Origin: a virus
Reading direction: 5' to 3' (one strand)
DNA: 45,826 nt
IMG/VR virus record: IMGVR_UViG_3300022562_001035
Span: 1 to 45,826 of that record
The notes beneath the pieces were generated by a model that saw only the letters and a list, made by a program, of their open reading frames with translations, searched no databases and was not told where the DNA came from. A program made the position numbers and the translations under genes. This document shows positions 138 through 45,826 of the stretch, piece by piece (position 1 is the first letter of the stretch; each line of letters begins with the position of its first letter).

Positions 138-1613
138 CCGGTCGAACGGATCCGGGAAGGGGTTCAGATGCGAGCGGATCAACTCGCCGACCGTCCCCGG
201 CGCTATCCCGCCGTCGCGGTACGGCTCGTCCATCCAGTTGCCCACGAGGATGTAGCAGCGTCCCTCGCGGAGCGCCTTCGAGAGCGGCGTCGCGTTGCCG
301 ATCTTCTGGCCTTTCTTCGTCCCCGCCGGCACCAGATCGACCGGCCCGCACCTCGACGACCTGCGAAAGTTCGCCTCCATGGTCGCCGCCGCCATCTTTC
401 CCGCAGCAGGATCGATGTAGCCCGCCTGGGCGACGGCGCGGCCGTCGGTGGTCGCCACCCTGCACTGATGCGCGAGGACTCCGTCGGGATCCTCCCGGCA
501 GAAGCTCGCCCCACACAGGTAGACGTTGCCGAGGGTGTCCCAGCGCAGCAGGGCGCTCGCGGTGAAGTCTGGGTTGTTGGCCTGGGTCGCCTTGGTGTAG
601 GCGACGTCCCAGCCACGGGTCGACCTGACCAGTGGTGCGAGCGGTTCGGCGATCAGCTTCCATCGAGACCACGAGACCATGCCGGTCAGGTCGGGCGTCG
701 CATTCCAGTCGGCGTCGAGGTTCTTGGCGCGCTCGTCCGGGCGCATCTGCGCGAACTTCGACCGATAGCGAGGATCGAGCGCCTCGAGGATCGCGTTGTC
801 CTCGAGCTTGCTGGTGATGACGGAGTAGGACATGGCCATCTCTGGCTCACCCTCGGCGAGCTCGGCGACCTCCTCGGGTGTCGCCCCGAACACGCGGCGG
901 CCCGTGCTCGTGTGGGCCATCGTGTAGCGGACGACGCCCGACTTGCGGGGGTCGAGCGGGGCTGAGCCATTGGGGAGCGGGCTCCCGTCGTCGAGGGTCA
1001 GGACGTACCAATCGACCCACTGGCGCAGGGGATGGAAGGGGTTGGGATTGGTGGAGACCGACAACGTCGGCTGGATCCCCGACACCGACCGCATGCGCTG
1101 GAGGAGCCAGAGGATCGTCTCCATCTCGCATTCGTCGGCCTCCTCGACGGCGACCCAGGTGAAGCCTGGCCCCTTCTTGCGGGTGACGCTGCCTTCCTTG
1201 AGGTGGCGAAAGCTGAGCTTGGCCCCGGTCGCCGGCCAGGTCGCGTCCATCGAGGCGCCCTCTCGCATGACCACCCCCGACCCCGGCAAGCCGTAGCCGA
1301 ACACGGTCTTGGCCGTGTCCCACAGGCCACCGCCGATCGTGATGTCTGCCGAGTTGCGCCGGCAGATCAGGCCGTTCGCTCCCTCGACTCCAGCGCCCCG
1401 GATCAGCCAGTCGAGCAGCTGCGCGTAGGTCTTGCCCGTCCCCATGGCCCCGGCAAAGATCCTGAACTCGGCGGGGTTCGTGACAAAGTCGGTCTGCGGC
1501 CCGGGTTGGGGCTCGCGGTGGATCCGAGCACAGGCCGAGCACTCGCCGCTGATCAGCTCGACCTGGCCACCGCAGTCGTAGCAGGGGTAAACGCTGACGA
1601 GCGGCTCGCTCAT
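1..1613 (-). CDS. terL: Terminase large subunit (runs across the circular join)
   Basis: ATPase-nuclease that drives DNA into the prohead and cuts it. From ATG at 1613 the frame is open to base 1 and continues at the other end of the window (stop at 45680-45682), giving about 540 residues, a usual length. Residues 11-28 carry two CxxC pairs (C11, C14, C25, C28), a zinc ribbon ahead of the motor. Walker A is GAMGTGKT near 55-62, Walker B is VAVEEADE near 154-161, and STNPN near 187-191 fits the coupling motif. The nuclease domain shows an acidic GWDVA strand and a C-terminal DDFVDA motif, as in RNase H-fold terminases. The start overlaps the upstream stop (ATGA). No stop lies inside the window, so automatic callers on the linear contig may miss this gene. 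Confidence 0.93.
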   Translation of the reverse strand, partial: MSEPLVSVYPCYDCGGQVELISGECSACARIHREPQPGPQTDFVTNPAEFRIFAGAMGTGKTYAQLLDWLIRGAGVEGANGLICRRNSADITIGGGLWDTAKTVFGYGLPGSGVVMREGASMDATWPATGAKLSFRHLKEGSVTRKKGPGFTWVAVEEADECEMETILWLLQRMRSVSGIQPTLSVSTNPNPFHPLRQWVDWYVLTLDDGSPLPNGSAPLDPRKSGVVRYTMAHTSTGRRVFGATPEEVAELAEGEPEMAMSYSVITSKLEDNAILEALDPRYRSKFAQMRPDERAKNLDADWNATPDLTGMVSWSRWKLIAEPLAPLVRSTRGWDVAYTKATQANNPDFTASALLRWDTLGNVYLCGASFCREDPDGVLAHQCRVATTDGRAVAQAGYIDPAAGKMAAATMEANFRRSSRCGPVDLVPAGTKKGQKIGNATPLSKALREGRCYILVGNWMDEPYRDGGIAPGTVGELIRSHLNPFPDPFDRAKDDFVDAVSRAFNHGDRGPTIIAPRPTRETLKAAAQELARRRQA

Positions 1614-2272
1614 GGTAGACTCTCATCATGGCTGCATCCGCACTCTCGGTTGTTCACGACGCCCGACGCGTCTGGCTCCTCTACGATGGCGACGAGTTCA
1701 TCGAGCTTCAATGGAGGGTCGAGCGCGCCCTGGAGAGGGCCGAAGCCCTCGGAGCGAAACACATCACCACTGGCCTCTATGACGGGAACTTGGCGGGGCA
1801 GATCGAACATGAGCGCCCGGTCGACAGGAACTGAGTCGCTCACACCGCGACCTCGGCGGCCGGTCTCCGCCGCGCTCACGGCTCGCCCCCCGAGGTCGTT
1901 CCGAAGGCCCGGACTTACCTCGCCCCAAGCGCTTATCTGCTCGACCATGTCCCGCAGCGGACCGGCCAGCGCAGCCCCAATCGCGCGCTGCTGACCGCGG
2001 ACTCGGTTGCGGAGCCGGATGACCTGCCGAGCGTGCGCGGCCGCGAAGAGAGGGTCCGGCGTTTCGCGGGCGTCGAGGCACTCACGGGCCAGATCGAGCG
2101 CATCAGCTGAGCTGCTGTCGAGCGGGGAGCCAGAGCGCACGCCGAACCAGGCATTGACCCAGGCCCCGCGGGTCCCATCGTCGCCGACCCTCAGCAACTC
2201 TAGATACCGAGGTCGTGGCCAGGCGCGCTCCCCCGGCTCGGGCCGGTAGCCTCGGGTGTGTAGGGTGCTCAC
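1610..2272 (-). CDS. Hypothetical protein with N-terminal LHTRGYRP motif, upstream of terL
   Basis: A 220-residue protein from a GTG start, ending in an ATGA overlap with terL. The first residues, S-T-L-H-T-R-G-Y-R-P, recur at the start of two unrelated proteins in this genome (17346 plus and 42476 minus). The middle (about residues 60-120) is rich in Ala, Arg and Leu and probably helical. The last 69 codons are antisense to a well-formed plus-strand ORF (1628-1834), and their third-position G/C is lower by hand count (about 65%) than in that ORF (about 76%). I do not recognise a family. Position next to terL would suit a packaging accessory protein, but that is inference. Confidence 0.7.
   Translation of the reverse strand: MSTLHTRGYRPEPGERAWPRPRYLELLRVGDDGTRGAWVNAWFGVRSGSPLDSSSADALDLARECLDARETPDPLFAAAHARQVIRLRNRVRGQQRAIGAALAGPLRDMVEQISAWGEVSPGLRNDLGGRAVSAAETGRRGRGVSDSVPVDRALMFDLPRQVPVIEASGDVFRSEGFGPLQGALDPPLKLDELVAIVEEPDASGVVNNRECGCSHDESLP
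1616..1627 (+). promoter_or_regulatory. Extended -10 box six bases before a plus-strand ATG
   Basis: TGGTAGACT (1613-1621) is followed by six bases and an ATG at 1628. A start point about 7 bases after the -10 would make the transcript leaderless. The same layout recurs at 29593-29608, 6715-6730, and on the minus strand at 6670 and 4299. A weak -35 (CTGACG, 1594-1599) is present. The promoter sits over the terL start, facing against the late operon. Confidence 0.4.
1628..1834 (+). CDS. Small protein antisense to the pre-terL gene
   Basis: A 68-residue ORF starting ATG, with no Shine-Dalgarno but an extended -10 box (TGGTAGACT) ending six bases before it, suggesting a leaderless mRNA. The product looks natural, with a beta-rich start (RRVWLLYDGDEFIEL) and then a helix (WRVERALERAEALG). 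It lies entirely opposite the last third of the 1610-2272 gene, with second codon positions facing each other. That arrangement commonly yields shadow ORFs in GC-rich DNA. Third-position G/C (about 76% by hand count) is higher than that of the opposing frame. Function unknown; real coding is possible, not proven. Confidence 0.42.
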   Translation: MAASALSVVHDARRVWLLYDGDEFIELQWRVERALERAEALGAKHITTGLYDGNLAGQIEHERPVDRN

Positions 2273-3460: not shown

Positions 3461-3754
3461 CTATGCACTTTCTCCGGCGACCACTAGGCGCGCGCTATCC
3501 GCGGAAATCGTCAGCCGCGCAGCGCCGACCACCACATCTATGGGCAGCCCGACGCGCTCGGTCACCTCGGCGCCTTCATGCACTACCCAGGCGAGCAGCG
3601 GGCCAGCTGCGTGGCCGAGCCGCCCCATGTCGGGTGACAGATAGCGCAGCAGCGCGAGCTCCCCGCGAGCAGAGCGGTTGACCCTCAAAACCTCGACGCC
3701 TGCCACGACGACCGCATGATCGCCTGGCCCCTCGCCGAGCTCTAGCCGGGTCAC
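3461..3754 (-). CDS. Hypothetical beta-rich protein downstream of terS candidate
   Basis: A 97-residue protein whose ATG overlaps the stop of the terminase small subunit candidate (ATGA). It is rich in Val, Ala and Gly with alternating hydrophobic strands (VVVAGVEVLRVNRSARGELA and LPIDVVVGAARLTISADSAR), suggesting a small beta-sandwich. No Cys, signal peptide or membrane segment. Co-transcription with terS suggests a packaging or head role, but no family is recognised. Confidence 0.7.
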   Translation of the reverse strand: MTRLELGEGPGDHAVVVAGVEVLRVNRSARGELALLRYLSPDMGRLGHAAGPLLAWVVHEGAEVTERVGLPIDVVVGAARLTISADSARLVVAGESA

Positions 3755-4299
3755 GACATCACCTCGGCGTCGATCGCACCATCGGGCCCGGCTGCCATCG
3801 GGACCCGCACGACGATCGGCCGCGCGTCCCCGGCGACGCTCTCCCGCTCGAGGCGCTTGGCCTCGGCCCTGATCTGGATCAGCTCCTGGGCGAAGGCGAG
3901 CTCGGCGAGGATATGGAGCGCTTTCGCGCAGCCCCGGGACTCGGGGTCGTTCGCGTGCATCTCGAGCGTGTCGAGCAGCCGCTCACGGTCGACCTGGCGG
4001 ACGAACGCCAACCCTTGCTCTGGTGACCCCTGAACGACGTCAACCCTTGCAGGGGTGCCCGCGACCCTCGCAGGGGTGCCCGGCAGCACCCGCGGTGCGT
4101 GATGCGCGATCGTCTCGTAGCGGCGTCGGGCCGCGTCCACCTCGAGCTTGAGGTCCGGGTGTGTGCGCAGGTAGGCGCCGATCGACTGTCGGGATATCCC
4201 CATGTGCTGCGCAGCGGCCTGCACGCCCCCGTAGGTTTCCACGGCTGTGACAAGCTTTACACGCTGCGCAGGACTGTCTAGGAGGGCCATAACGGCCAT
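3751..4299 (-). CDS. terS: Terminase small subunit (candidate)
   Basis: DNA-recognition subunit of the packaging motor. The 182-residue protein has an N-terminal HTH (about residues 16-52: AVETYGGVQAAAQHMGISRQ then SIGAYLRTHPDLKLEVDAAR). This is the usual terS layout, in which the HTH is followed by a basic-acidic helix reading like 'D-x-x-L-x-x-A'. A helical segment at 115-150 may form the oligomerisation region, and the C-terminus is beta and acidic. Length fits terS. A near-perfect 9-base tandem duplication (GTTATGGCC twice) gives two in-frame ATGs (4299 and 4290). I keep 4299 because an extended -10 box lies exactly six bases before it. The role is inferred from the HTH and the position upstream of terL. 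Confidence 0.6.
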   Translation of the reverse strand: MAVMALLDSPAQRVKLVTAVETYGGVQAAAQHMGISRQSIGAYLRTHPDLKLEVDAARRRYETIAHHAPRVLPGTPARVAGTPARVDVVQGSPEQGLAFVRQVDRERLLDTLEMHANDPESRGCAKALHILAELAFAQELIQIRAEAKRLERESVAGDARPIVVRVPMAAGPDGAIDAEVMS

Positions 4300-4313
4300 A
4301 ACGGTAGTTTACC
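4300..4313 (-). promoter_or_regulatory. Extended -10 promoter, leaderless start of the terS operon
   Basis: On the minus strand TGGTAAACT (4314-4306), then six bases (ACCGTT), then ATG at 4299. The spacing matches the boxes before 6670, 6730, 1628 and 29608. No convincing -35 hexamer is present, as expected for an extended -10 promoter. Confidence 0.5.
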
Positions 4314-4361
4314 ACGGCGAGGTTTACATCGCGCGCGAGGATGTGGAAACCCGTGGAAACC
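4307..4361. repeat. Short direct repeats upstream of terS (possible operators)
   Basis: GTTTAC occurs at 4307-4312 and 4322-4327 (15-base period) and GTGGAAACC at 4343-4351 and 4353-4361 (10-base period, one helical turn). They sit in the 168-base gap before terS, just upstream of and over its -10 box. Such phasing is typical of protein binding sites; the binder is unknown. The rest of this gap shows no gene. Confidence 0.45.
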
Positions 4362-4467
4362 TAACGAGCAGCTTCGTGTCGACGTCCATGCCCCACAGTA
4401 CCGACTAGAGGTCTCGGGCGTCACTGGGCCGCGGCATGGGGCTCGGGCACACCCTCGGGGCGGACGC

Positions 4468-4767
4468 TCACGAATTCGCCGGGCAGTACTCGGGCCCACA
4501 TTCATACCAGCACGCCTCGCCGTTGCACGTGAGTTCGTCGGCGCAGCATGTGGCGAACGTGTCGTTAGGGCACGACCCGTCTTTGTTCGGCTCAACGCAG
4601 CCGCCCGGGTTCTTGCAGCAGAAGATCTGCGCGGCGGGGTCGGCGGCGTATCCGAGATGGGCTCCCGGTGAACGCATCTCTGCCTGGTCGACGGAGCGCA
4701 GTGTGTCGTCTTCATCGCACGAAGCGAGAAGAACGATGATGGTGATTGATGTGAGAAGTGTTCGCAT
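4468..4767 (-). CDS. Cys-rich lipoprotein
   Basis: A 99-residue secreted lipoprotein. It starts MRTLLTSITIIVLLASC, a signal peptide ending in a clear lipobox (L-A-S-C, Cys at about residue 17), then DEDD. Asp at +2 would favour inner-membrane retention by the E. coli rule, if that applies in this host. The mature part has many Cys including two CC pairs and a C-terminal CxxxCxxxxC cluster, so it is probably disulfide-bonded. A non-operonic gap lies on each side. Phage lipoproteins often block superinfection or protect the cell envelope; that role is inference. Residue style resembles Cys-rich lipoproteins of Myxococcota. Confidence 0.75.
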   Translation of the reverse strand: MRTLLTSITIIVLLASCDEDDTLRSVDQAEMRSPGAHLGYAADPAAQIFCCKNPGGCVEPNKDGSCPNDTFATCCADELTCNGEACWYECGPEYCPANS

Positions 4768-4844: not shown

Positions 4845-5453
4845 TCACCCTAGTTTGCCAAATAGGTCGTAGAACCGTAGTTTGTCTTCGATGAATTGCG
4901 CGGTGTACTGTGCCGCCCGTGCCCTCTCACGCGCCGAAGCGACCCCTCCCTCGGGGCCGGTGCGTGTGCGCTCTGTGTTGTCGACATTTGTTTGATTCCT
5001 GGCATGGATCCGACGCTGATCGGCCGCGAATGTCTCCATATGCTGGGCAAACCTGAGCGCGTCGGCGAGCGGTTTGCACCCGCTCGCCGCCACGGCGTAG
5101 CTCACTCCGGCGCTCTTGAATAGGGCCTGGAGTGGAGTCAGTTGCGACGGCGGCGGGTATGCTCCGTCGGGCACCGCTCCGTCGGGCACCGCTCGGTCTG
5201 CCTCGGCTCGGTCTGCATAGACCACGAGCACGCGCCCATCGGCGAGAACGATCTCGGGGGTCGAGTGCGCGCAGGATGCGACGGTAAATGGATCTTCGCC
5301 GTGGGCCGGGTGATTTAGCCTGCGCACGATCTCGGCCACGGGCGCATCAATGGGAGAGTCGCGCCGGAAGGCTTCGCCGGTGTGTGAGAGGTGGGCAGGG
5401 ATTACGACTGAGACTTGTTCTGTGTCCATGGTGTTACCGTGTCTGCTGGTCAT
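4845..5453 (-). CDS. Hypothetical protein
   Basis: A 202-residue protein with an ATG start overlapping the upstream stop (ATGA); an alternative ATG lies at 5429. The N-terminal half is mixed alpha/beta. Residues about 80-100 contain an imperfect duplication (ADRAEADRAVPDGAVPDGAY), also visible in the DNA at 5165-5215 as repeated CCGTCGGGCACCGCTC units. The C-terminal half is helical and charged (ARERARAAQYTAQFIEDKLR). No known motif was recognised. Confidence 0.72.
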   Translation of the reverse strand: MTSRHGNTMDTEQVSVVIPAHLSHTGEAFRRDSPIDAPVAEIVRRLNHPAHGEDPFTVASCAHSTPEIVLADGRVLVVYADRAEADRAVPDGAVPDGAYPPPSQLTPLQALFKSAGVSYAVAASGCKPLADALRFAQHMETFAADQRRIHARNQTNVDNTERTRTGPEGGVASARERARAAQYTAQFIEDKLRFYDLFGKLG

Positions 5454-6670
5454 GCGACGATCACCTCGCCGGTCGCGTTGATGGCGTGAGCGCCGTCACC
5501 CTCGCGGTAGAGCAGCGCGCGACCACCGTTGCACTCCCCACACTCGACAGTCTCGCGCGTCCACGCGGCGTCGAGGTGGGCGTAGATGTCCGGGAGGTGG
5601 CGACCGATGGCGGTGCCCTTGTGCGGGGAGACGTTGCCGGGGTTGCACCTCGGGCAAGACCGGGCGACCCCGACAACAAGACTTGGCTCGAGCCACCCGC
5701 CGGAACACGTCACGGCAACACCGTTGTACTCGCCTGGGCCCGGGCACTCGCCAGCCAGCCACGCGAGCAGCCACCGAGCGACAGCGGGGCACTCGGCGAG
5801 CGAGCGCGGGACATCTTTGCATGCGAGCATTTCGGCAACTCCCATGTCGTCGCTTGGATCGTGGCTTGTATACCCGCGGGTGTCGGCAAGCCACGCAGAC
5901 ACGCTGGTGTCGTCAACTCCAACCGCGGACATCTCGCTGGCCCAATCCCGATGAATCGCAACGCAGTGCTCGGTGAAACCACCGTCAGACTCCCACCTGT
6001 CTGCCAACACGGGTAGGTGTTCGCGCCACCCCTCGGCGAGCGCTCGCAGGGTTTCGCGGGCGCCCTCGTGGCCGGGCTCTGTCCAGGTGCACTCCCACTC
6101 GAACCGCCCGTCCCCTGGTGACTGTGTCTCGCGCACGCGCCTGCCCTCGGCCTCCCAGCGCGCGCGGTCTCGCTCGAATTGTTCCATGTGCCAGGTCTCA
6201 GACCCGTTGCCGGCCGTGCGGCGTTCAACCGGCGCCGCCAGGAGCACGGCCTCGGGCGCCGAGACGATGCGGCGGCCCGTGGGCTTGCCGTCGACGACGC
6301 AGGCGGGGCAGGGGCGACATGCCCAAGGCTCCTCCTCAAAGTCGCCAGCCGGGTCGCCGTCGAGTGGCTCCCAGTCTGAGGCGGCGCCCCACTTCACCTG
6401 ATTCCGATGCCCCTCGCACTCCGGGCACGGCCCCACGTCCACCGGCCCGGCGTGGCGCACCAGGGTGGCGATGGCCAGGGTGGGGAGGTCGGCGGCGCCA
6501 AGGGCAACTGGCGCCTGCCCGACCCTGGCTCGCTCTACGAGATAGCGGCCTTCGCGGCCTCCTGTGACCACGATGGTCTCGCCGCGAGGAAACGGGTCCG
6601 CGCCAATTTTTCGATAGTCCCACCCCAGGAGGTCACACCACTGCCGGGCCCGTCGCACGTCGTCGCTCAC
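5450..6670 (-). CDS. Large hypothetical protein with several zinc-finger-like CxxC pairs
   Basis: A 406-residue protein, first gene of the leftward operon, starting at GTG 6670 six bases after an extended -10 box. It has at least four CxxC pairs: CPEC near 83, CRPC and CPAC near 117-123, CPRC near 335 and CGEC near 378. The spacing recalls DnaJ-type or rubredoxin-like zinc knuckles, so metal or nucleic-acid binding is likely. The region between (about 150-300) is acidic and Trp-rich (DRWESDGGFTEH, HDPSDDMGVAEML). No enzymatic signature. Being promoter-proximal and divergent from the early block, it may be expressed early; this is inference. Confidence 0.75.
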   Translation of the reverse strand: MSDDVRRARQWCDLLGWDYRKIGADPFPRGETIVVTGGREGRYLVERARVGQAPVALGAADLPTLAIATLVRHAGPVDVGPCPECEGHRNQVKWGAASDWEPLDGDPAGDFEEEPWACRPCPACVVDGKPTGRRIVSAPEAVLLAAPVERRTAGNGSETWHMEQFERDRARWEAEGRRVRETQSPGDGRFEWECTWTEPGHEGARETLRALAEGWREHLPVLADRWESDGGFTEHCVAIHRDWASEMSAVGVDDTSVSAWLADTRGYTSHDPSDDMGVAEMLACKDVPRSLAECPAVARWLLAWLAGECPGPGEYNGVAVTCSGGWLEPSLVVGVARSCPRCNPGNVSPHKGTAIGRHLPDIYAHLDAAWTRETVECGECNGGRALLYREGDGAHAINATGEVIVA

Positions 6671-6684
6671 CTCGGCAGCCTACC
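6671..6684 (-). promoter_or_regulatory. Leftward leaderless promoter (TGGTAGGCT) of the divergent pair
   Basis: On the minus strand TGGTAGGCT (6685-6677), six bases, then GTG 6670. It mirrors the rightward box at 6715-6723, so a 59-base region drives both operons. Confidence 0.5.
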
Positions 6685-6694
6685 AGCTTCGGAG

Positions 6695-6729
6695 TTGGCG
6701 TGCCACGTTTTTCGTGGTACCGTCCCGGC
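6695..6729 (+). promoter_or_regulatory. Rightward early promoter with palindrome between -35 and -10
   Basis: TTGGCG (6695-6700), a 17-base spacer, TACCGT (6718-6723) preceded by TGG, then six bases to ATG 6730. The spacer holds a perfect inverted repeat, CCACG-TTTTT-CGTGG (6703-6717). A repressor bound there would block polymerase, as in classic phage operators. The transcript would be leaderless. Confidence 0.5.
6703..6717. promoter_or_regulatory. Inverted repeat, putative operator
   Basis: CCACG (6703-6707), five T, CGTGG (6713-6717), between the two divergent -10 boxes. Candidate binders encoded here are the small HTH proteins at 9142, 13773 or 2304. A hairpin in RNA is less likely because the site lies upstream of both expected start points. 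Confidence 0.4.
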
Positions 6730-7107
6730 ATGACTGACCCCACCCCGACTCTACTCCAGCGGTTGCGCGTCAAGCTCGACAACTCCGCGGACTTGGCTTC
6801 CTGTCTCGGGCACGAGGAGGCCGAAGGAGCCCCTCGCGCCGAGGTCGTCTCCATCGCCGAGAACTCGCTAGCGCACATGGCAAGTATCGCGCGCGCGGCC
6901 CTTTGCGAGGCCGAGATCCTGCGCCAGGAGCTCGACGTCATCACGGGCGCGCCGATCGGCGAATTCCAGTCCAAGGCCGAGGAGGACCTGTGGGCCCGCA
7001 TCGTTGGCGACCTCGCCGGTGAGAATGGGGCCGACTGCGCGGCGATGATTGCCGACCGGGCCGTTGTCCTCTACCGGGCCAGGCGTTCGAAGGTGGAGGG
7101 GTTTTGA
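6730..7107 (+). CDS. Hypothetical protein, first gene of the early operon
   Basis: A 125-residue, largely helical acidic protein. I start it at ATG 6730 (MTDPTPTLLQRLRVKLDN) because the -10 box ends six bases before; the in-frame GTG at 6700 would lie within the promoter. Repeated Ala/Glu-rich helices with heptad-like spacing suggest a helical bundle. No Cys pair, signal peptide or known motif, and no family recognised. Confidence 0.75.
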   Translation: MTDPTPTLLQRLRVKLDNSADLASCLGHEEAEGAPRAEVVSIAENSLAHMASIARAALCEAEILRQELDVITGAPIGEFQSKAEEDLWARIVGDLAGENGADCAAMIADRAVVLYRARRSKVEGF

Positions 7108-21851: not shown

Positions 21852-22003
21852 GCGCGACCCCGAAGCGAGCACCGGTCAGGCCCCGGCGGCTTCTCGCCGA
21901 ACAGAGCACGGCCTCGCGGATTATCGCGGCGGAGCGCGGCGAGCTCGCGGACGGGCCCGAGCTCTTTCTCGACCTGCCAGAGCGCGAGGAGGTACGTCGA
22001 TGA
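21848..22003 (+). CDS. 51-residue hypothetical protein
   Basis: Small protein between two ATGA overlaps. Basic N-terminus (KRAPVRPRRLLAEQSTASRI) and acidic C-terminus (ELFLDLPEREEV). Third positions are mostly G/C. Probably real by operon fit; role unknown. Confidence 0.6.
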   Translation: MSATPKRAPVRPRRLLAEQSTASRIIAAERGELADGPELFLDLPEREEVRR

Positions 22004-22266
22004 GCCGCCTTGGTTGGACGGACGAGCGCGACGCCCGACTGCGCAAGCTGTTCGGGCTGCGCATGAGGGATGAAGAGATCGCGGCGGACCTTGGCGTGAC
22101 CACCCGGGCCGTAGCGAACAGGCGCTACCGCCGGGGTCTCGTCCGGCGCCGCCTTGCCACACAACTGCGGCAGCTCACCGATGAGAAGCTGATCGAGGAA
22201 CTCGAACGCCGCGGGCTCGTGGTGACGGTCGAGCGGCTGCCCTCGGGAAACGTGCACCTGTGGTGA
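22000..22266 (+). CDS. GcrA/Myb-like HTH protein
   Basis: An 88-residue DNA-binding protein. Residues 5-46 (GWTDERDARLRKLFGLRMRD, EEIAADLGVTTRAVANRRYR) match the W-[ST]-D-E-R-[DV]-x-x-L-[RK]-x-L pattern of GcrA and SANT/Myb-like domains, where the helix after VTTRAV reads the DNA. The C-terminal half is a short coiled coil and a strand. Near the end of the early operon it may control late genes by recruiting sigma70 polymerase as GcrA does; that is inference. Confidence 0.72.
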   Translation: MSRLGWTDERDARLRKLFGLRMRDEEIAADLGVTTRAVANRRYRRGLVRRRLATQLRQLTDEKLIEELERRGLVVTVERLPSGNVHLW

Positions 22267-22436
22267 TGTCCGAGCACGAGCCCGGTTCCTGGGCCGACCG
22301 CCATCCCGAGAGCTCGATCTCGAGGGCGCTCGCGTCGATCCCCGCGCGCCTGCGCTTCACGGTCGCACCCCAGCGGCCGAGGCCCAGCGCGGCGCCCGAG
22401 CAGCTCGCCCTACCATCGGCGCGCCCGAACCGCTAG
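22266..22436 (+). CDS. 56-residue hypothetical protein
   Basis: Small ORF starting at an ATG that shares one base with the previous stop (TGATG). Third codon positions are almost all G or C. Product rich in Pro, Ala, Ser and Arg (MSEHEPGSWADRHPESSISR), probably unstructured. Its stop codon TAG is the first half of the TAGACT -10 box of the following gene. Modest confidence because of size. Confidence 0.5.
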   Translation: MSEHEPGSWADRHPESSISRALASIPARLRFTVAPQRPRPSAAPEQLALPSARPNR

Positions 22437-22445
22437 ACTCGGGCA
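22434..22445 (+). promoter_or_regulatory. TAGACT box six bases before the tail-fibre ATG
   Basis: TAGACT (22434-22439), six bases, ATG 22446: the same -10/start spacing as the leaderless promoters, but without the TGG extension. It could uncouple this virion gene from the early operon. Confidence 0.4.
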
Positions 22446-23477
22446 ATGCCCACGAAGCCCGACCCCGTCAACGACCTCCCTCCGCTCTGGGGAGGGGCGG
22501 GCAACTATTCGGCCGGGGTCTACCCGCCCACGCTTCCCTGGGGAGCTGCACACCCGCTGGCTGGCCAGCCATTACCCTGGGGCGGTCAGCCGAGGCTCAA
22601 CTCGACCGACCTTGCGAACTTTGCTGACACCGGCCTGACCCCGCAGGTCCCGACCGTCGCGAGCCAGTTCAACGAATGGATGCGGCGCGTCGGGATCTGG
22701 GCGACCGACTGGGTCGCACTCGGGACCAACGCCCCCGACGCTGACGCCCACATCATGGAGACGACCGCGGCCGGTCTCTCGCGCGCGGTAGCCTACGAGG
22801 CGACTACCGGCTACCAAAACTCCGGCCCTGCCGCAGCTGTCCTGCTCATGGGGTTCAGCGTGCCCGCCGGCGAGACCTCGAGCTTTGGTGACAACACAAC
22901 GGTTACTCTTGGCGCGAATGCCCTGATCGACGCTCCGACGACGTCCAACGTGAGGATCGGTACACTGCGACTCAAGGTCGGCGCGCCTGCCCCGACTGTC
23001 GATGGTGAGCTCGCTGCATCGACGGGCGGGACGCCTATTTTTCGGGCGAGCGGTCTCGGTCGCTATATATTCGGTGGGATCAATGGTCCGTGGCTTGGGA
23101 TCGATGCCGACCAGGTTCCGGAGACAGCTCTTGCGGCGACAACGCTGCTCACGACGTCGACCAAAACCGACGTCAACGGGCTTGTTAGGGTGCGCGTGTC
23201 CGGCGAAATGCAGAGGTCTGCTGCCGGGTCATGCATCCTCTCTCTGCAAGAAGATCAGGGAACAGCGACCTGGACCGACATCGACAACGGAGGCGTGACC
23301 ACCAAGACAATCACGACAGTTGGCACGGTCGACCCCAACGCGTGGACTGGGTTTCACATGGAGCGCACCTTTGGTGCGGGTGCGACTGATCGCTTTTTTC
23401 GGATGCGCATCACCGCGGGCGCGTCGACCGCAAAGATCCGCGATACTCACTTGACCGTCCGGCGGCTCGGGGCCTAG
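22446..23477 (+). CDS. Probable tail fibre / receptor-binding protein
   Basis: A 343-residue protein, beta-rich, with Gly/Thr/Ser/Asn-rich strands typical of phage fibres (GETSSFGDNTTVTLGANALI, TATWTDIDNGGVTTKTITTV). The Pro/Gly/Trp-rich N-terminus (PPLWGGAGNYSAGVYPPTLP) could attach to the baseplate, and the C-terminal about 120 residues read like a sandwich domain (LVRVRVSGEMQRSAAGSCIL). It is the only virion-like gene on the plus strand, after the early block, and convergent with the lipoprotein gene. Parts are less GC-rich than neighbours, in line with horizontal exchange of receptor-binding genes. Identification is by composition and place. Confidence 0.55.
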   Translation: MPTKPDPVNDLPPLWGGAGNYSAGVYPPTLPWGAAHPLAGQPLPWGGQPRLNSTDLANFADTGLTPQVPTVASQFNEWMRRVGIWATDWVALGTNAPDADAHIMETTAAGLSRAVAYEATTGYQNSGPAAAVLLMGFSVPAGETSSFGDNTTVTLGANALIDAPTTSNVRIGTLRLKVGAPAPTVDGELAASTGGTPIFRASGLGRYIFGGINGPWLGIDADQVPETALAATTLLTTSTKTDVNGLVRVRVSGEMQRSAAGSCILSLQEDQGTATWTDIDNGGVTTKTITTVGTVDPNAWTGFHMERTFGAGATDRFFRMRITAGASTAKIRDTHLTVRRLGA

Positions 23478-23884
23478 ACCGCCCAGGCGCACACGCCTAG
23501 ATCTGTGCAGACCGTGTCGCCGGGACAGGGCTCCGGGTCACAGGGGGGCAGATCGGCGGGGTAGCAGATCGACCAGTGTGTTCCGTCGGCGTCCACCCCT
23601 TCGCTGCATGAGCCCACCACGCAAGCCCCCAGCGGTCCGCACGGGCAGCCGGGATCGCCAGGCGGACACGGCCAGCACTCCTCGGCGAGAACGCACGTGA
23701 GCCCGTCTTCGCAGGTTCCCTGAGAACAGGGGCAACCCTCGCCCTCACACGGCTCAAGCACGTCCAGCTCGACGTCTTCGGTCGAGGCTTGCCCATCCAT
23801 CGATTCGCCGTCGTCGGGAGCGCTAACCAGTGCAGGTCCACATCCCGCCATGACGGCCAGCGTGAGCACAAGCCACCGTATCAC
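23474..23884 (-). CDS. Cys-rich lipoprotein (host-like)
   Basis: A 136-residue lipoprotein. I start it at GTG 23884, which overlaps the previous stop (GTGA) and gives VIRWLVLTLAVMAGC with a lipobox at Cys 15; ATG 23899 is an alternative. The mature part has about 20 Cys in repeated short loops (CEGEGCPCSQGTCEDGLTC, CPPGDPGCPCGPLGACVVG, CPGDTVCTDLGVC). Such repeats are frequent in secreted lipoproteins of Myxococcota. Its stop shares the palindrome CTAG (23474-23477) with the convergent fibre gene. Possible roles: outer-membrane decoration, superinfection exclusion, or part of lysis. Confidence 0.7.
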   Translation of the reverse strand: MIRWLVLTLAVMAGCGPALVSAPDDGESMDGQASTEDVELDVLEPCEGEGCPCSQGTCEDGLTCVLAEECWPCPPGDPGCPCGPLGACVVGSCSEGVDADGTHWSICYPADLPPCDPEPCPGDTVCTDLGVCAWAV

Positions 23885-24078
23885 TTCGGCTCCCTGCATT
23901 GCGCGAGCTCGGACTCGAGGTTCTTGATCTTCTCGATCTCGGCCTCGCACGCCTGGCCGCCTGTCTCGCCGTCTGCGGGACCTGGGTCGCTGGAGTCGTC
24001 GGGAGCGCGGGGGCTGCCGCATGTCCCAGCGGACAGGAAAAGCACGAGCCCCAGGAGTGGAAATGTGGTCTTGGTCAT
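23881..24078 (-). CDS. Small lipoprotein, possible outer-membrane spanin
   Basis: A 65-residue protein with a signal sequence and lipobox (LGLVLFLSAGTC, Cys about 20), a Pro/Asp-rich linker and a short terminal helix (CEAEIEKIKNLESELAQC) bounded by Cys. This matches the small lipoprotein partner of two-component spanins (o-spanin), which links to an inner-membrane coiled-coil partner. ATGA overlap with the upstream membrane protein and GTGA overlap with the next lipoprotein. Role is inference from architecture. Confidence 0.6.
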   Translation of the reverse strand: MTKTTFPLLGLVLFLSAGTCGSPRAPDDSSDPGPADGETGGQACEAEIEKIKNLESELAQCREPK

Positions 24079-27903: not shown

Positions 27904-28911
27904 TCAGAGAAAGCCTACCACGCCCAGGGGCGTGCACGTTGCGATGGTCCTGCACACGGCCGTCGACCCCCGGTTCTGGCCGACGTGCTCGACGGAGGTC
28001 ACGAAGTAGTCGCCGCCCAGTTCGCCGGACCGGATCCGCAGCAGGCGGTTGGGGCGGACGTCGGGCGAGAGCAGCATGGGGCAGACAACCTGGTTGTCCT
28101 CGGTCCGCTCGGGCTTGTCGATCAGCAAGCGCGCGTTGGGCTCGAGGCTGGCGCTGACCTCGATCGCTGGCTCGGCGAGCGGCTGGCCCCTGGAGGTCAG
28201 GTAGACCGCGCCGTCGTCCCACCACCACTGGGTCCGGGTCAAGCCGGTGAGGGCGTCGAGGATGTCGGTCGCGTAGATGTTCGTCGCGTCATAGCCGCCG
28301 CGGAACGTGTAGCGAGCAAGCTCGGGCGGGATCGCCGTCGCCAGCTCGGCGACCATGACCCGCCGGATCAAGTAGTCCAGCACCTCGGTCGCCGCGACGT
28401 CGCTGGCCCAGAACTTGTTGGCGATCGCAGACGTGGCCTGGATCACCCCGTCGCTGCCCTGGCCGACGGTGACCCAGGTGTGCCCGCTGACTCGCCGGGA
28501 GCGGGCGAAAGCGAGCGTCCCGTCGAACAGCTTGGCCGTCGTCGAACTGCCCGAGTAGCGCGCGCTGATCCGCAGGGTCCCGAACCCCGTCCCCGCACTG
28601 ACGCTGGTCTGTCCGCCGAGGTCGGCCCCGGTCACCAGGCGACCGTCGAGAAAGTCGAACTCGTCGGCAAAATCGATGATCCGCCGCGTCTCGCCCGCGA
28701 TCGTCGTCCGGCTCGACTTGGCGAGGTTGTACATGACCACGGTCGCCTCGGCTGGCTGGCTGCCCCCGATCCCCTTGCGGACGCGCCAGTCGATCCGGCC
28801 CTGGACGACGCCGGGGGTCACGTCGGGGTTGACGGTGATCCCGTCCGTGAAGGGCGGGACGATCTCGACCTGCGCGACCACGCCGAATTGCTGCGAGCGG
28901 GTGGACGTCAC
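27904..28911 (-). CDS. Baseplate hub protein (gpD / Mu gp44-like)
   Basis: A 335-residue baseplate hub that caps the tube and holds the spike. Typical features: RIDWRVRKGIGGSQPAEATV with VVMYNLAKSSRTTI (the 'N-x-A-x-[IV]-x-[IV]-Y-N-L' signature), a GDSG-like middle, and a late-control-type domain ending RNRLLRIRSGELGGDYFVTS then VEHVGQNRG. GTG start with AGGAG about 10 bases upstream on the minus strand. Confidence 0.8.
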   Translation of the reverse strand: MTSTRSQQFGVVAQVEIVPPFTDGITVNPDVTPGVVQGRIDWRVRKGIGGSQPAEATVVMYNLAKSSRTTIAGETRRIIDFADEFDFLDGRLVTGADLGGQTSVSAGTGFGTLRISARYSGSSTTAKLFDGTLAFARSRRVSGHTWVTVGQGSDGVIQATSAIANKFWASDVAATEVLDYLIRRVMVAELATAIPPELARYTFRGGYDATNIYATDILDALTGLTRTQWWWDDGAVYLTSRGQPLAEPAIEVSASLEPNARLLIDKPERTEDNQVVCPMLLSPDVRPNRLLRIRSGELGGDYFVTSVEHVGQNRGSTAVCRTIATCTPLGVVGFL

Positions 28912-29156
28912 GGCGGGGGGCTCCTATGCTGGGAGGCATGCACCCGCTGATGATTCCGCCGCGGATTGCGTCGCGCCCAATCTCCTCCCGCGACGAGTAT
29001 GAGATGTGGCGGGCGCGGATGGTCGGCCAGGGCATCACACTGATTCATGGTGTCCCATATGCCGTTGACCGTGTAACCGTCGGCTACCACTCGGATGGGA
29101 GCATCCACGGTGAGGCTCGCTTCACCGAGCTCCGGCTCATACATCCCCTCGTTCAC
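28908..29156 (-). CDS. Small ORF between plug and hub (alternative to 28938-29210 plus)
   Basis: An 82-codon frame that overlaps both neighbours by 4 bases (GTGA at each end), so it fits the operon. Its first half looks natural (EPELGEASLTVDAPIRVVAD), but the second half is His/Arg/Pro-rich with poor codon usage (third-position G/C about 70% versus 78% on the opposite strand). Either this or the plus-strand ORF could be the true gene. Confidence 0.35.
   Translation of the reverse strand: MNEGMYEPELGEASLTVDAPIRVVADGYTVNGIWDTMNQCDALADHPRPPHLILVAGGDWARRNPRRNHQRVHASQHRSPPP
28925..28937 (+). promoter_or_regulatory. TATGCT box seven bases before the plus-strand ATG 28938
   Basis: TGGACG (28902-28907), 17 bases, TATGCT (28925-28930), seven bases, ATG. 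Similar geometry to the other leaderless starts, without the TGG extension. Confidence 0.35.
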
Positions 29157-29210
29157 AGCAACGCCCTCTCAGACCCGTCCAGCAACGCCACGAGCGACGC
29201 CGGCCGGTAG
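28938..29210 (+). CDS. Plus-strand small protein inside the baseplate operon
   Basis: A 90-residue ORF opposite to the late genes, between hub and plug, overlapping the end of plug by 58 bases. The product looks natural (RDEYEMWRARMVGQGITLIH, then VPYAVDRVTVGYHSDGSIHG); third positions are about 78% G/C. A promoter-like TGGACG/TATGCT pair ends seven bases before ATG. If real it is an independently expressed accessory ('moron'-like) gene. Competes with the minus ORF 28908-29156. Confidence 0.45.
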   Translation: MHPLMIPPRIASRPISSRDEYEMWRARMVGQGITLIHGVPYAVDRVTVGYHSDGSIHGEARFTELRLIHPLVHSNALSDPSSNATSDAGR

Positions 29211-29593
29211 TACAGTGTCGCCCTCCCGCGCCAGTCGTCGCGCCCAGGCTTGCCCGTCGAGCCGTCGTCGAAGCCGTACCAGAGTTGCCCGGCGGGGCAG
29301 GTGGGCAGGCTGCGCAGAACCGGGAGCAGGTCGACGCCCGACGACGTGAGCGGGATCCCGTTGGTGACGATCTCACCCTGGCGGGTGAACAGCCGGCGGA
29401 TCGTCCACAGCTGCGAGAGTTGCATCCAGACGCAGGAGAACGAGAACCCGGCACCGTCGAGCGCCTCGGGCCCGAACCTGAACAGCGGCCGCTCGGTGTT
29501 CGCCAGCGCGCGGAAGGGGAGGTCTCGGAGCGGGTTTCCGTCGGTGTCGACGAACGCCTCGCCGACGGTCACGGGTGTCGTCTGGAGGGTCAT
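29153..29593 (-). CDS. Baseplate plug-like protein
   Basis: A 146-residue protein starting at ATG 29593 with AGGAG upstream. Its core (SFSCVWMQLSQLWTIRRLFT then GEIVTNGIPLTSSGVDLLPV) has the 'W-x-x-x-x-x-x-G-x-x-x-x-x-G-I-P-L-x-x-G-x-D-L-L' pattern of baseplate plug proteins, found between the Dit-like protein and the hub. It probably closes the tube at the hub. Confidence 0.7.
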   Translation of the reverse strand: MTLQTTPVTVGEAFVDTDGNPLRDLPFRALANTERPLFRFGPEALDGAGFSFSCVWMQLSQLWTIRRLFTRQGEIVTNGIPLTSSGVDLLPVLRSLPTCPAGQLWYGFDDGSTGKPGRDDWRGRATLYYRPASLVALLDGSERALL

Positions 29594-29973
29594 GGTAGGC
29601 TCCTCGCATGGCAGCACCAGACACACTCGACACGCATGAGCGCTTCGTTCGCCTTGAGCGAGGGAGCGACTGGGGGGCGCCGACGCTCCTTTACAGGGGC
29701 CGGGAGGTCGTGCTTGCCCAGGGACCGGTTCGGTTCCTTGGCAACGACGGGCGCGAGCATGAGGGTGTTCGCGTGACTCGGATAGAGACCGTGAGCGCGG
29801 GCGACCATGGACACACCTCGACCGGTAGTGTTCGTGTCGAGTGGATCGAAGTCGATCACTTTGGCGCACGCGCCATCATCGATCCGGCGACCGTCACCAT
29901 CTCGGCCGATTGCATCTGGGAAAACAGCCCGCTGGCGAGGGCACACCACGAGCATTTCGACAGTCGTGCTCAT
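29590..29973 (-). CDS. ORF between Dit-like and plug genes (alternative to 29608-29991 plus)
   Basis: A 127-codon frame with ATGA overlaps on both sides, consistent with the operon. The N-terminus reads like a protein (MSTTVEMLVVCPRQRAVFPD), but the rest is rich in Pro, Arg, Cys and His (KERRRPPVAPSLKANEALMR, ending CVWCCHARSLP). Related phages, as far as I recall, have Dit-like and plug adjacent. Third-position G/C equals that of the opposing frame (about 70%), so strand choice is open. Confidence 0.38.
   Translation of the reverse strand: MSTTVEMLVVCPRQRAVFPDAIGRDGDGRRIDDGACAKVIDFDPLDTNTTGRGVSMVARAHGLYPSHANTLMLAPVVAKEPNRSLGKHDLPAPVKERRRPPVAPSLKANEALMRVECVWCCHARSLP
29593..29607 (+). promoter_or_regulatory. 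Extended -10 box before plus-strand ATG 29608
   Basis: TGGTAGGCT (29593-29601), six bases, ATG 29608. The 30 bases around it resemble 1611-1640 (CATGGTAG-CTC...CATGGC-GCA), suggesting a common origin of the two plus-strand units. Confidence 0.42.
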
Positions 29974-29991
29974 GCCGCCTCAAATCCCTGA
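29608..29991 (+). CDS. Plus-strand protein inside the baseplate operon
   Basis: A 127-residue ORF antisense to the gap between Dit-like and plug genes. Product beta-rich and natural-looking (ERFVRLERGSDWGAPTLLYR, GREVVLAQGPVRFLGNDGRE, VRVEWIEVDHFGARAIIDPA). No Shine-Dalgarno; an extended -10 box ends six bases before ATG. Start context resembles that of the 1628 ORF (ATGGC-GCA). Competes with the minus ORF 29590-29973. Possibly an accessory gene expressed against the late operon. Confidence 0.45.
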   Translation: MAAPDTLDTHERFVRLERGSDWGAPTLLYRGREVVLAQGPVRFLGNDGREHEGVRVTRIETVSAGDHGHTSTGSVRVEWIEVDHFGARAIIDPATVTISADCIWENSPLARAHHEHFDSRAHAASNP

Positions 29992-43593: not shown

Positions 43594-43602
43594 ACTTTAC
43601 CA
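43594..43602 (-). promoter_or_regulatory. Extended -10 promoter after the portal gene
   Basis: On the minus strand TGGTAAAGT (43602-43594). Unlike the other boxes of this class it lies about 60 bases before its ATG (43534), with a Shine-Dalgarno in between. Confidence 0.42.
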
Positions 43603-43635: not shown

Positions 43636-43742
43636 AATGGGCCTTTCATCCCTATGTCCCGTTCCCTGGCTCGGGGCTACTACGTGTCCAGGCGCCACGC
43701 TGACTCACGGTCCTTTAGCCGGACTTGGCTGACTCCATTGTA

Positions 43743-45365
43743 TCACACAACCTGGCTCTCTCGCATGGCCGCCTGAATGTGAGACTTGTACACGCGATAG
43801 CTCGCCCCCGGCCTGAACAGCGGGACGCCTGACCGCTTCACGAACCCGAGCACCCCCGCATTGCTCTTGGCCCCGATGAGCTCGCGGGCCTCGGCGAGCG
43901 TGAGCGGGGCTTCGCCCGCGGGCATCAGACCGTCGTCGGCGAGCTCGATGTCCTCGACGCGGGCCGTCTCTTCTTCGACGACGCTCGCCACGGGTTCTGG
44001 TGCGAGCTCGTACTCCTCGGCAAGAGTCGCGTCGGTGCGCAACTCGGCGATGCTCACGCTCGCCTGGCCGCCGCCGTCGATCGCCCGCGCCTCCGCGTTC
44101 ATCTTGCGCACGGTCGCCCGCTCCGCGGGAGTGAGCGACCATAGGCTGGGCTGCTGGACCTCGAGTGCGACGATCGGGATTCCATGGGTCGGGCCGTTCA
44201 GGGCACGCGAGGCGATCGCGAAGAACATCGCCAGCGGCTCGGCATAGGTCCCCTCCCACCTCGAGCTTACCTCATCGTACCAACCCCGGATCCCCGCGTC
44301 AGCATCGTTGTTCAGGCCGGACAGCGAAGGCTGCGCGCCGAGGAGCACGGCCTCGCCCATCCCACTGGCCGCAACCAGGGCATCGCGGGTGCGGTCGATC
44401 GACTCGGGCAGGCCGGTGATCGGGCGACCCACGACGCCGTAGGCCTCGCCCTGATCGAGTACGTAGTCGCCAAACTGTCCGCCCCCAAGTCGCATGCGCT
44501 CGTAATGGTCCGCGACCTTGCTCGTGTCGCCGGCGTCGATCGCTCGGGCAAGATCCTGGTTGGTCCACACGCCCTGACTCAGCAGGCCGATCGCGGCAAG
44601 CATGCGCTGGAGACTGACGCCGTAGCCCTTGAGGCCGAGCCAGACCAGGTCGAAGATCGAGGAGCCGCCGCAGTCGCAGAGATCCACGCGCGTCTCTTCA
44701 TCCAGGTCGACGCCGATCCACTGATGCACGCGGGTCCAGTGGTACTCGGCCTGCATGCCCGAGCGAGGAAAGCTGACCCAGTAGTGCGTCGGCTGCTCGA
44801 AGCGGGGCAGGAGCGGGTCGCGGCCCCAGCGGCTCACGCTCACGCGGCCCGACTGGCCACCGGTGATGACCTTGACCCACAGCAGCCGGGTCACGCGGCC
44901 AAGGTCGAGCGACTCGGTGGTCGGCAGCCCGTCCTCGACGCCGAACACCCACATGGCCGAGCCGTGGGCGTAGGCCTGGGAGCGGGCTTGTTTGACCAGG
45001 CCAAAGAGGCCAAAGCGCTTGGTCCAGCGCGCGATCTCGTCGGGCTCCTCGATCTTCTCATCGGGCTTGCCGCCGATCCGCACGTGGAGCGGCGCACCGT
45101 TGAGCTCGCCCTTGACGATGATCCCCTCACGCAGGCTGTCCTCGGCCTCGCGGGTCGCGATGCGCCTGGCCAGGGCATTGTTGCGCATGAGGTCCCGGAT
45201 CTCGTTGTGCGTGAGCGGGCAGCCGCCCCAGAAGCTCGTCCCGGTTTCCCCGTCGAGCTCGCTCCCGAGCCCGGTCGTGTCGTTGACGAACCCGGCTCCG
45301 ACACCATCGGCGCGCGTGCCCCCAGCGAGAGGGCGAGAGTCTGAGCGGGGTTGACGCCTGGCCAC
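43743..45365 (-). CDS. Portal protein (DUF1073-like) with HTH-like tail
   Basis: A 540-residue portal: the ring at the head vertex through which DNA passes. Signature parts: LTHNEIRDLMRNNALARRIA, TREAEDSLREGI, TKRFGLFGLVKQARSQAYAH, GVSLQRMLAAIGLLSQGVW, PITGLPESIDRTRDALVAAS, GMGEAVLLGAQPSLSGLNN and TPAERATVRKMNAEA fit the DUF1073/Acb1-N family. The last about 55 residues (LTLAEARELIGAKSNAGVLG, FVKRSGVPLFRPGASYRVYK, SHIQAAM) look like an excisionase/MerR-type winged helix, an uncommon addition. GTG start at 45365; no strong Shine-Dalgarno. Confidence 0.85.
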   Translation of the reverse strand: MARRQPRSDSRPLAGGTRADGVGAGFVNDTTGLGSELDGETGTSFWGGCPLTHNEIRDLMRNNALARRIATREAEDSLREGIIVKGELNGAPLHVRIGGKPDEKIEEPDEIARWTKRFGLFGLVKQARSQAYAHGSAMWVFGVEDGLPTTESLDLGRVTRLLWVKVITGGQSGRVSVSRWGRDPLLPRFEQPTHYWVSFPRSGMQAEYHWTRVHQWIGVDLDEETRVDLCDCGGSSIFDLVWLGLKGYGVSLQRMLAAIGLLSQGVWTNQDLARAIDAGDTSKVADHYERMRLGGGQFGDYVLDQGEAYGVVGRPITGLPESIDRTRDALVAASGMGEAVLLGAQPSLSGLNNDADAGIRGWYDEVSSRWEGTYAEPLAMFFAIASRALNGPTHGIPIVALEVQQPSLWSLTPAERATVRKMNAEARAIDGGGQASVSIAELRTDATLAEEYELAPEPVASVVEEETARVEDIELADDGLMPAGEAPLTLAEARELIGAKSNAGVLGFVKRSGVPLFRPGASYRVYKSHIQAAMRESQVV

Positions 45366-45408
45366 GGGGCGAGGTTACCGCGGCCAGGCGCGGCGAGCAA
45401 AGGGCCGC

Positions 45409-45624
45409 TTACATCGGGTCCACTGGCAAAGGTGATCCACCGTGACGAACGGAGCGCTCGACTTTCGTCAGCCAGAGTTGCGCCTCCTCGAGCTTCGTGA
45501 CGACCAGGCTGGACTCGCGGGATCGCCCAAGCTCTCGGGCCTTCGCAACAAGCTTGTCGAGTTCGCGCGCGACGTGGTCGGGGTCGATGGTGGAGCTGAG
45601 TGGAGGGTGTTCGTGATGTCCCAT
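45409..45624 (-). CDS. Acb2/Tad1 hairpin-like small protein (candidate)
   Basis: A 71-residue protein between terminase and portal. Its C-terminal helix (SRESSLVVTKLEEAQLWLTK) closely resembles the helix that marks the Acb2/Tad1 hairpin domain (DUF7681-type), known from memory as 'S-R-x-x-S-L-x-x-T-x-L-E-x-A-x-x-W-x-x-x-A'. Acb2 proteins form hexamers that soak up CBASS and Thoeris cyclic signal molecules. Ligand residues cannot be checked here. The N-terminus HHEHPPLSSTIDPDHVAREL and the following helix fit a hairpin. It may instead be an unrelated two-helix protein. Confidence 0.5.
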   Translation of the reverse strand: MGHHEHPPLSSTIDPDHVARELDKLVAKARELGRSRESSLVVTKLEEAQLWLTKVERSVRHGGSPLPVDPM

Positions 45625-45679
45625 GATCTATCCGTCGCGCCGCTGGACGAATCGATCCCCGGCCCTCGCGTGTGCTGGC

Positions 45680-45826
45680 TCATCGTCGCCTAGCCTGCCT
45701 GCGCCTGGCTAGCTCTTGAGCCGCGGCCTTCAACGTCTCGCGCGTCGGCCTCGGCGCGATGATGGTCGGGCCACGGTCACCGTGATTGAAGGCGCGCGAG
45801 ACCGCGTCGACAAAATCGTCCTTGGC
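45680..45826 (-). CDS. terL: Terminase large subunit, C-terminal end (other side of the join)
   Basis: The terL frame that leaves the window at base 1 re-enters here: 45690-45826 repeats 1-137, and three extra Arg codons lead to TGA at 45682-45680. Same gene as at 1-1613, not a second copy. Confidence 0.9.
   Translation of the reverse strand, partial: AKDDFVDAVSRAFNHGDRGPTIIAPRPTRETLKAAAQELARRRQARRR
45690..45826. repeat. Terminal direct repeat, copy 2
   Basis: Identical to 1-137; marks closure of the circle at 45,689 bp. Confidence 0.95.

Follow-up and report, generated by a model that had tools for sequence, protein, structure and literature searches.

Leaderless genes were found, in a survey of 953 bacterial genomes, to be marked by TANNNT about 12 bp before the start (Zheng et al. 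2011, PMC3160421), and in Deinococcus the role of TANNNT in leaderless genes has been shown by mutation (PMC12340547). In Mycobacterium tuberculosis the same role was shown by mapping start sites, and TGN strengthens the promoter there (PMC3898074); in mycobacteria a 5'-end ATG or GTG is sufficient for leaderless translation (PMC4633059). The leaderless mode is on record for Actinobacteria, Deinococcus-Thermus and further bacteria (PMC3160421, PMC3898074, PMC12340547), and E. coli has leaderless genes for which lambda and P2 are named as sources (PMC4633059).

Here we describe a phage genome, a virus contig of 45,826 bases from IMG/VR that was analysed in full (the window), in which seven gene starts each follow a -10-like box at a distance of exactly six bases. 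A box at this distance, from which leaderless messages are predicted, is well known in many bacteria, and its frequency here is unusual for a phage. Among phages, the lambda cI message from PRM is leaderless; it likewise starts at its AUG, whereas single genes are concerned there and about 9% of genes, at unit starts, are predicted to be concerned here. The Thermus phages P23-45 and phiYS40 have extended -10 promoters and leaderless middle and late messages and, as predicted for this phage, have a leaderless class beside genes with Shine-Dalgarno (SD) sites. Bacterial TA-led genes (PMC3160421, PMC12340547) match the phage in the hexamer, in the distance and in having SD-led and TA-led genes as the two main signals, but those are chromosomal sets, and the TGG/CGN extension is stronger in the phage set. 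Mycobacterial leaderless promoters, with [G/C][A/G]N or TGN before TANNNT (PMC3898074, PMC4633059), lack a -35 and have ATG or GTG at +1; they resemble those of the phage in the extended -10 and in the ATG or GTG at the (here predicted) +1, although TGN precedes only 7% of mycobacterial TANNNT promoters and five of the seven phage sites.

The phage and its relatives

The contig has about 68% G+C and a 137-nt direct terminal repeat (1-137 identical to 45690-45826), which probably makes it a complete genome of about 45.7 kb. Its products include a terminase large subunit (TerL), a portal, a major capsid protein and baseplate J, as well as a Dit-like tail protein and tape-measure-like matches, and by these protein matches it is a myovirus-like tailed phage. 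No tRNA genes were found in the 45,826-base window. Identity to known phage proteins is at most about 30% over long stretches, and the nearest viral relative that we found is a 23.8-kb contig (L012) with 34% TerL identity. Single-protein patterns searched against phages, IMG/VR and GTDB gave no near relatives, and a TerL profile search returned distant kin only. Judged from these comparisons, the phage is an unclassified lineage without sequenced close kin, and the boxes described below give such a lineage a readable promoter grammar.

A box six bases before gene starts

Counting both strands of the whole window, TGGTANNNT has 8 matches compared to 2.38 +/- 1.42 in dinucleotide shuffles, a control without codon structure, and none of 100 shuffles reached 8 copies. 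Exactly six bases separate the motif from an ATG or GTG in five of the eight copies; the probability of at least five of eight at one spacing is 6.6e-7 (binomial), or 7e-6 corrected for 11 spacings. The five starts that the first-pass annotation had assigned to the motif (6670-, 6730+, 4299-, 1628+ and 29608+) all have it where it had been placed. The relaxed form that it had read as TAGACT-N6-ATG 22446 is also correct, and its list lacked the box before the portal gene and a copy at gap 10 (Table 1).

Table 1. Boxes in the window and the starts that they precede. Boxes are on the strand of their gene; the gap is counted in bases between box and start codon.
Box	Box position	Gap	Start	Gene or ORF	Length (aa)	Coding potential per codon	Description
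TGGTAGACT, extended -10	1613..1621 (+)	6	ATG 1628	1628..1834 (+)	68	0.219	Small gene opposite terminase operon; predicted leaderless message
TGGTAAACT, extended -10	4306..4314 (-)	6	ATG 4299	3751..4299 (-)	182	0.164	Predicted leaderless message
TGGTAGGCT, extended -10	6677..6685 (-)	6	GTG 6670	5450..6670 (-)	406	0.110	No SD; divergent from 6730+; predicted leaderless message
TGGTACCGT, extended -10	6715..6723 (+)	6	ATG 6730	6730..7107 (+)	125	0.236	Heads rightward operon; predicted leaderless message
CGCTAGACT, relaxed-form -10	22431..22439 (+)	6	ATG 22446	22446..23477 (+)	343	0.131	Predicted leaderless message
TGGTAGGCT, extended -10	29593..29601 (+)	6	ATG 29608	29608..29991 (+)	127	0.037	Possible gene in gap of leftward tail operon; predicted leaderless message
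CGGTAACCT, -10	45372..45380 (-)	6	GTG 45365	43743..45365 (-)			Portal gene (Pfam PF06381, E 2.6e-30); predicted leaderless message
TGGTAGGCT	27912..27920 (-)	10	ATG 27901				Box within end of upstream gene
TGGTAAAGT	43594..43602 (-)	about 50-60	ATG 43534				Start has its own SD

Using a codon model with an SD bonus, and without the motif as a term, we called 74 genes mechanically and scanned 29,120 gapped triplet patterns by position upstream of them. The top patterns of this unbiased scan are parts of the SD sequence, which the gene caller favours, and the best non-SD pattern in the 29,120 tests places TANNNT so that its first T falls at -12 (5 observed versus 0.11 expected, p 1.3e-7). The genome thus has two clear start signals, SD and TANNNT at -12. 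Upstream of these starts, TANNNT occurs five times at gap 6 and four times at the other 30 gaps combined, with none at gaps 2-5 or 7-9.

The consensus of the seven aligned sites is YGNTANNNT; position -14 is always G, and position -15 is T at five sites. The dinucleotide that stands one base ahead of the -10 hexamer is TG in five sites, which have the TGN of an extended -10, and CG in 22446+ and 45365-, which do not. No shared hexamer is seen 16-18 nt upstream across the seven sites (by inspection only), and TTGGCG lies 17 nt upstream of TACCGT at the 6730+ site. Five of the start codons are ATG and two are GTG, none at gap 6 is TTG, and in six of the seven the start is the farthest-upstream one of its ORF. 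An SD match of at least 4 nt is found at none of the seven box-bearing starts versus 46 of 70 other starts. None of the seven genes is inside an operon (same-strand gene within 60 bases upstream), whereas 47 of the remaining 68 are (Fisher p 6e-4, on a gene list hand-edited at two places, with two weak antisense ORFs dropped and three plus-strand ORFs added). With TANNNT at -12, no SD and an ATG or GTG start, the set has the sequence features of TA-led genes. It is a sample of seven sites, two of them in disputed genes, and a solidly coding gene coincides with a full TGG at four only (6670-, 6730+, 4299- and 1628+).

Similar boxes are present in other genomes. In the related contig L012, the 18 called genes include one with TGATACGGT-N6-GTG and one with TGGTACAGT-N7-GTG (0.008 expected at these gaps), and the leaderless mode may be common to the phage lineage, L012 included. 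Mycobacteriophage D29 has one box, at gap 7, among 76 starts. In Thermus phage P23-45, 3 of 83 called genes (50 kb scanned) are preceded by a TTATTATT-type box at gap 6, and no sequence kinship between this phage and the window was found. In two bacterial chromosomes of one phylum, counts of the pattern at gap 6 versus gap 12 are 28 versus 9 and 44 versus 15, and reversed-pattern controls give 3 and 15 (versus 28 and 44); the phylum was reached via a weak TerL match, and the counts show the bacterial mode and point to no host. Given that gap 6 is favoured in both chromosomes, the layout is genuinely bacterial.

Proposed leaderless messages and competing explanations

We propose that the boxes very probably belong to extended -10 promoters of the sigma-70 type, from which leaderless mRNAs are made. 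They would serve as -10 elements for RNA polymerase with the host housekeeping (sigma-70-type) factor, and the promoters would count as extended -10 promoters, with YGNTANNNT as consensus, TGGTANNNT in most cases and no shared -35 seen by inspection. Because the box is exactly six bases before the first codon, transcripts are predicted from the start codon: with the last T of the box at -7, transcription would begin on the A or G of that codon. The message would have no 5' leader, and the ribosome would start on a 5'-terminal AUG or GUG and make no use of an SD site. From the sequence we infer all three parts of this reading, namely that RNA polymerase starts at the boxes, the exact base of that start and the use of the 5' end by the ribosome. 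The leaderless mode would be used at transcription-unit entry points and for lone genes, with SD sites used inside operons.

The first-pass annotation had described a class of leaderless extended -10 promoters. This is the best reading of the anatomy, given the exact spacing, the absence of SD at all seven sites, their position first in a unit or isolated, and the unbiased test, but the mode is a known bacterial one; the phage is a clear example of that mode and not a new class. The further idea that promoter class goes with one of two translation modes is sustained only in part. A TGGTANNNT box also precedes an SD-leadered gene (43594-43602) and a gap-10 gene (27912-27920), and thus it is distance, not promoter class, that sets the mode. 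These two boxes run counter to the main reading in that the box alone has no power to define a class (43594 is leadered and 27912 near-leaderless), and they indicate that the box is a general promoter of this phage.

A closely related explanation accepts the boxes as -10 elements and has transcription start 1-5 nt before the codon, leaving a tiny leader. At any -10 box the start site can vary over a few bases, gap 10 occurs at 27912 and gap 7 is seen in L012. Nevertheless, all seven main sites keep a gap of exactly 6 and TANNNT is missing from the neighbouring gaps of the called genes, as if selected for +1 on the codon, and we consider such short leaders quite unlikely. It is more improbable still that these promoters are a class peculiar to the phage, recognised with the help of a phage factor and not by plain host holoenzyme. 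The candidate for such a factor is the GcrA-like protein at 22000-22266, whose N-terminal domain is of the GcrA type (PF07750, 29.8 bits, cut-off 26.9; PDB GcrA match, E 0.007), and GACTC, a form of GANTC, is found in two of the seven boxes. The GcrA match is, however, confined to the DNA-binding part, five of the seven boxes have no GANTC, GANTC in the genome is near Markov expectation (0.83), and a Pfam scan of the phage found no sigma factor or RNA polymerase. Finally, TANNNT is short and degenerate and had been chosen by eye in the first-pass annotation, and single sites could be chance meetings with start codons; for the set as a whole, chance is hardly credible, being statistically refuted after look-elsewhere correction. 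Under the preferred leaderless reading, one elaboration to which we give little credence is that leaderless starts are placed deliberately at the entry of the transcription program, so that translation of first genes would be independent of SD-dependent 30S initiation and could run under host shutdown of SD initiation, with the GcrA-like protein, encoded last in the rightward operon, tuning the same boxes.

The two disputed genes require a separate weighing. The boxes at 1613+ and 29593+ each share one base with a minus-strand start codon, and rival ORFs lie antisense to the plus-strand genes 1628+ and 29608+. The boxes might accordingly be by-products of the adjoining minus-strand starts (the reverse of AGCCTACCATG and AGTCTACCATG), with the plus-strand ORFs not genes. 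The first T of each motif is indeed shared with a minus start codon, at 29593 the SD of the minus gene (GAGGAG) lies beneath the motif, and 29608+ is weakly coding (0.037 per codon versus 0.021 for the antisense ORF), with no homologue found. Against this, coding potential at 1628+ is good (0.219 versus 0.042 per codon), both ORFs fill gaps of the leftward operon, and five gap-6 sites remain without them versus an expectation near 0.1. On balance we regard a by-product origin as rather unlikely; 1628+ is well supported as a gene, and 29608+ is weakly supported.

The boxes also correct gene starts, namely those of the portal gene (GTG 45365) and of small opposite-strand genes, and they point to a host clade rich in leaderless genes. 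Should the leaderless reading be confirmed, the phage would offer a compact system in which leaderless and SD initiation can be compared within one infection.

Other box copies and minor features

The gap-10 box at 27912..27920 is a near-leaderless candidate, with a predicted leader of about 4 nt. The copy that had been noted near 43600 is present, but about 60 nt before an SD-led start and not in a leaderless position: ATG 43534 carries its own GGGAGGGGG, with SD GGGAGG, and the box appears to drive an SD-leadered gene. Likewise, TATGCT-N7-ATG 28938 exists as described, but an SD-like GGGAGG intervenes between box and ATG, and an SD gene is the better reading. At 23883(-), TGATACGGT is inside the reading frame of a lipoprotein, for which an SD-led GTG just upstream is the better start, and this candidate was rejected. 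The structural genes that come next after the portal gene have a good candidate for a leadered promoter in TGATACAAT, at 43737-43745 (-) directly past that gene.

Small, moron-like plus-strand ORFs occupy gaps of the leftward terminase/structural operon (1628-1834, 28938-29210, 29608-29991 and 45442-45693), and two of these four bear the leaderless box. The GcrA-type protein at 22000-22266 (+) has 88 aa, closes the rightward operon and is a candidate late regulator. Cysteine-rich proteins with lipoprotein-type signal peptides are encoded at 4468-4767 (-) and 23474-23885 (-); no family match was found for either, and by eye they are myxobacterium-like. A myxobacterial host was considered from these lipoproteins and is not claimed, since in the Myxococcus phage Mx8 none of the 83 annotated starts tested has TANNNT at gap 6.

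Across the window, CTAG and AGATCT are depleted, at 0.43 and 0.36 of Markov expectation. GANTC is 2.3-fold depleted versus dinucleotide shuffles, yet at 0.83 under the Markov control, and CcrM avoidance was set aside. The divergent promoter region 6690-6717 contains CCACGTTTTTCGTGG and TTGGCGTGCCA; as an operator, the palindrome CCACGTTTTTCGTGG at 6703 was rejected, with no second exact copy in the window and one-mismatch matches at chance level. The gene 3751-4299 (-) has a weak HTH match and looks like a small terminase subunit. Just upstream of it, 4320-4366 holds two copies of GTGGAAACC at 10-nt spacing and related AGGTTTACA copies, a possible operator or packaging site.
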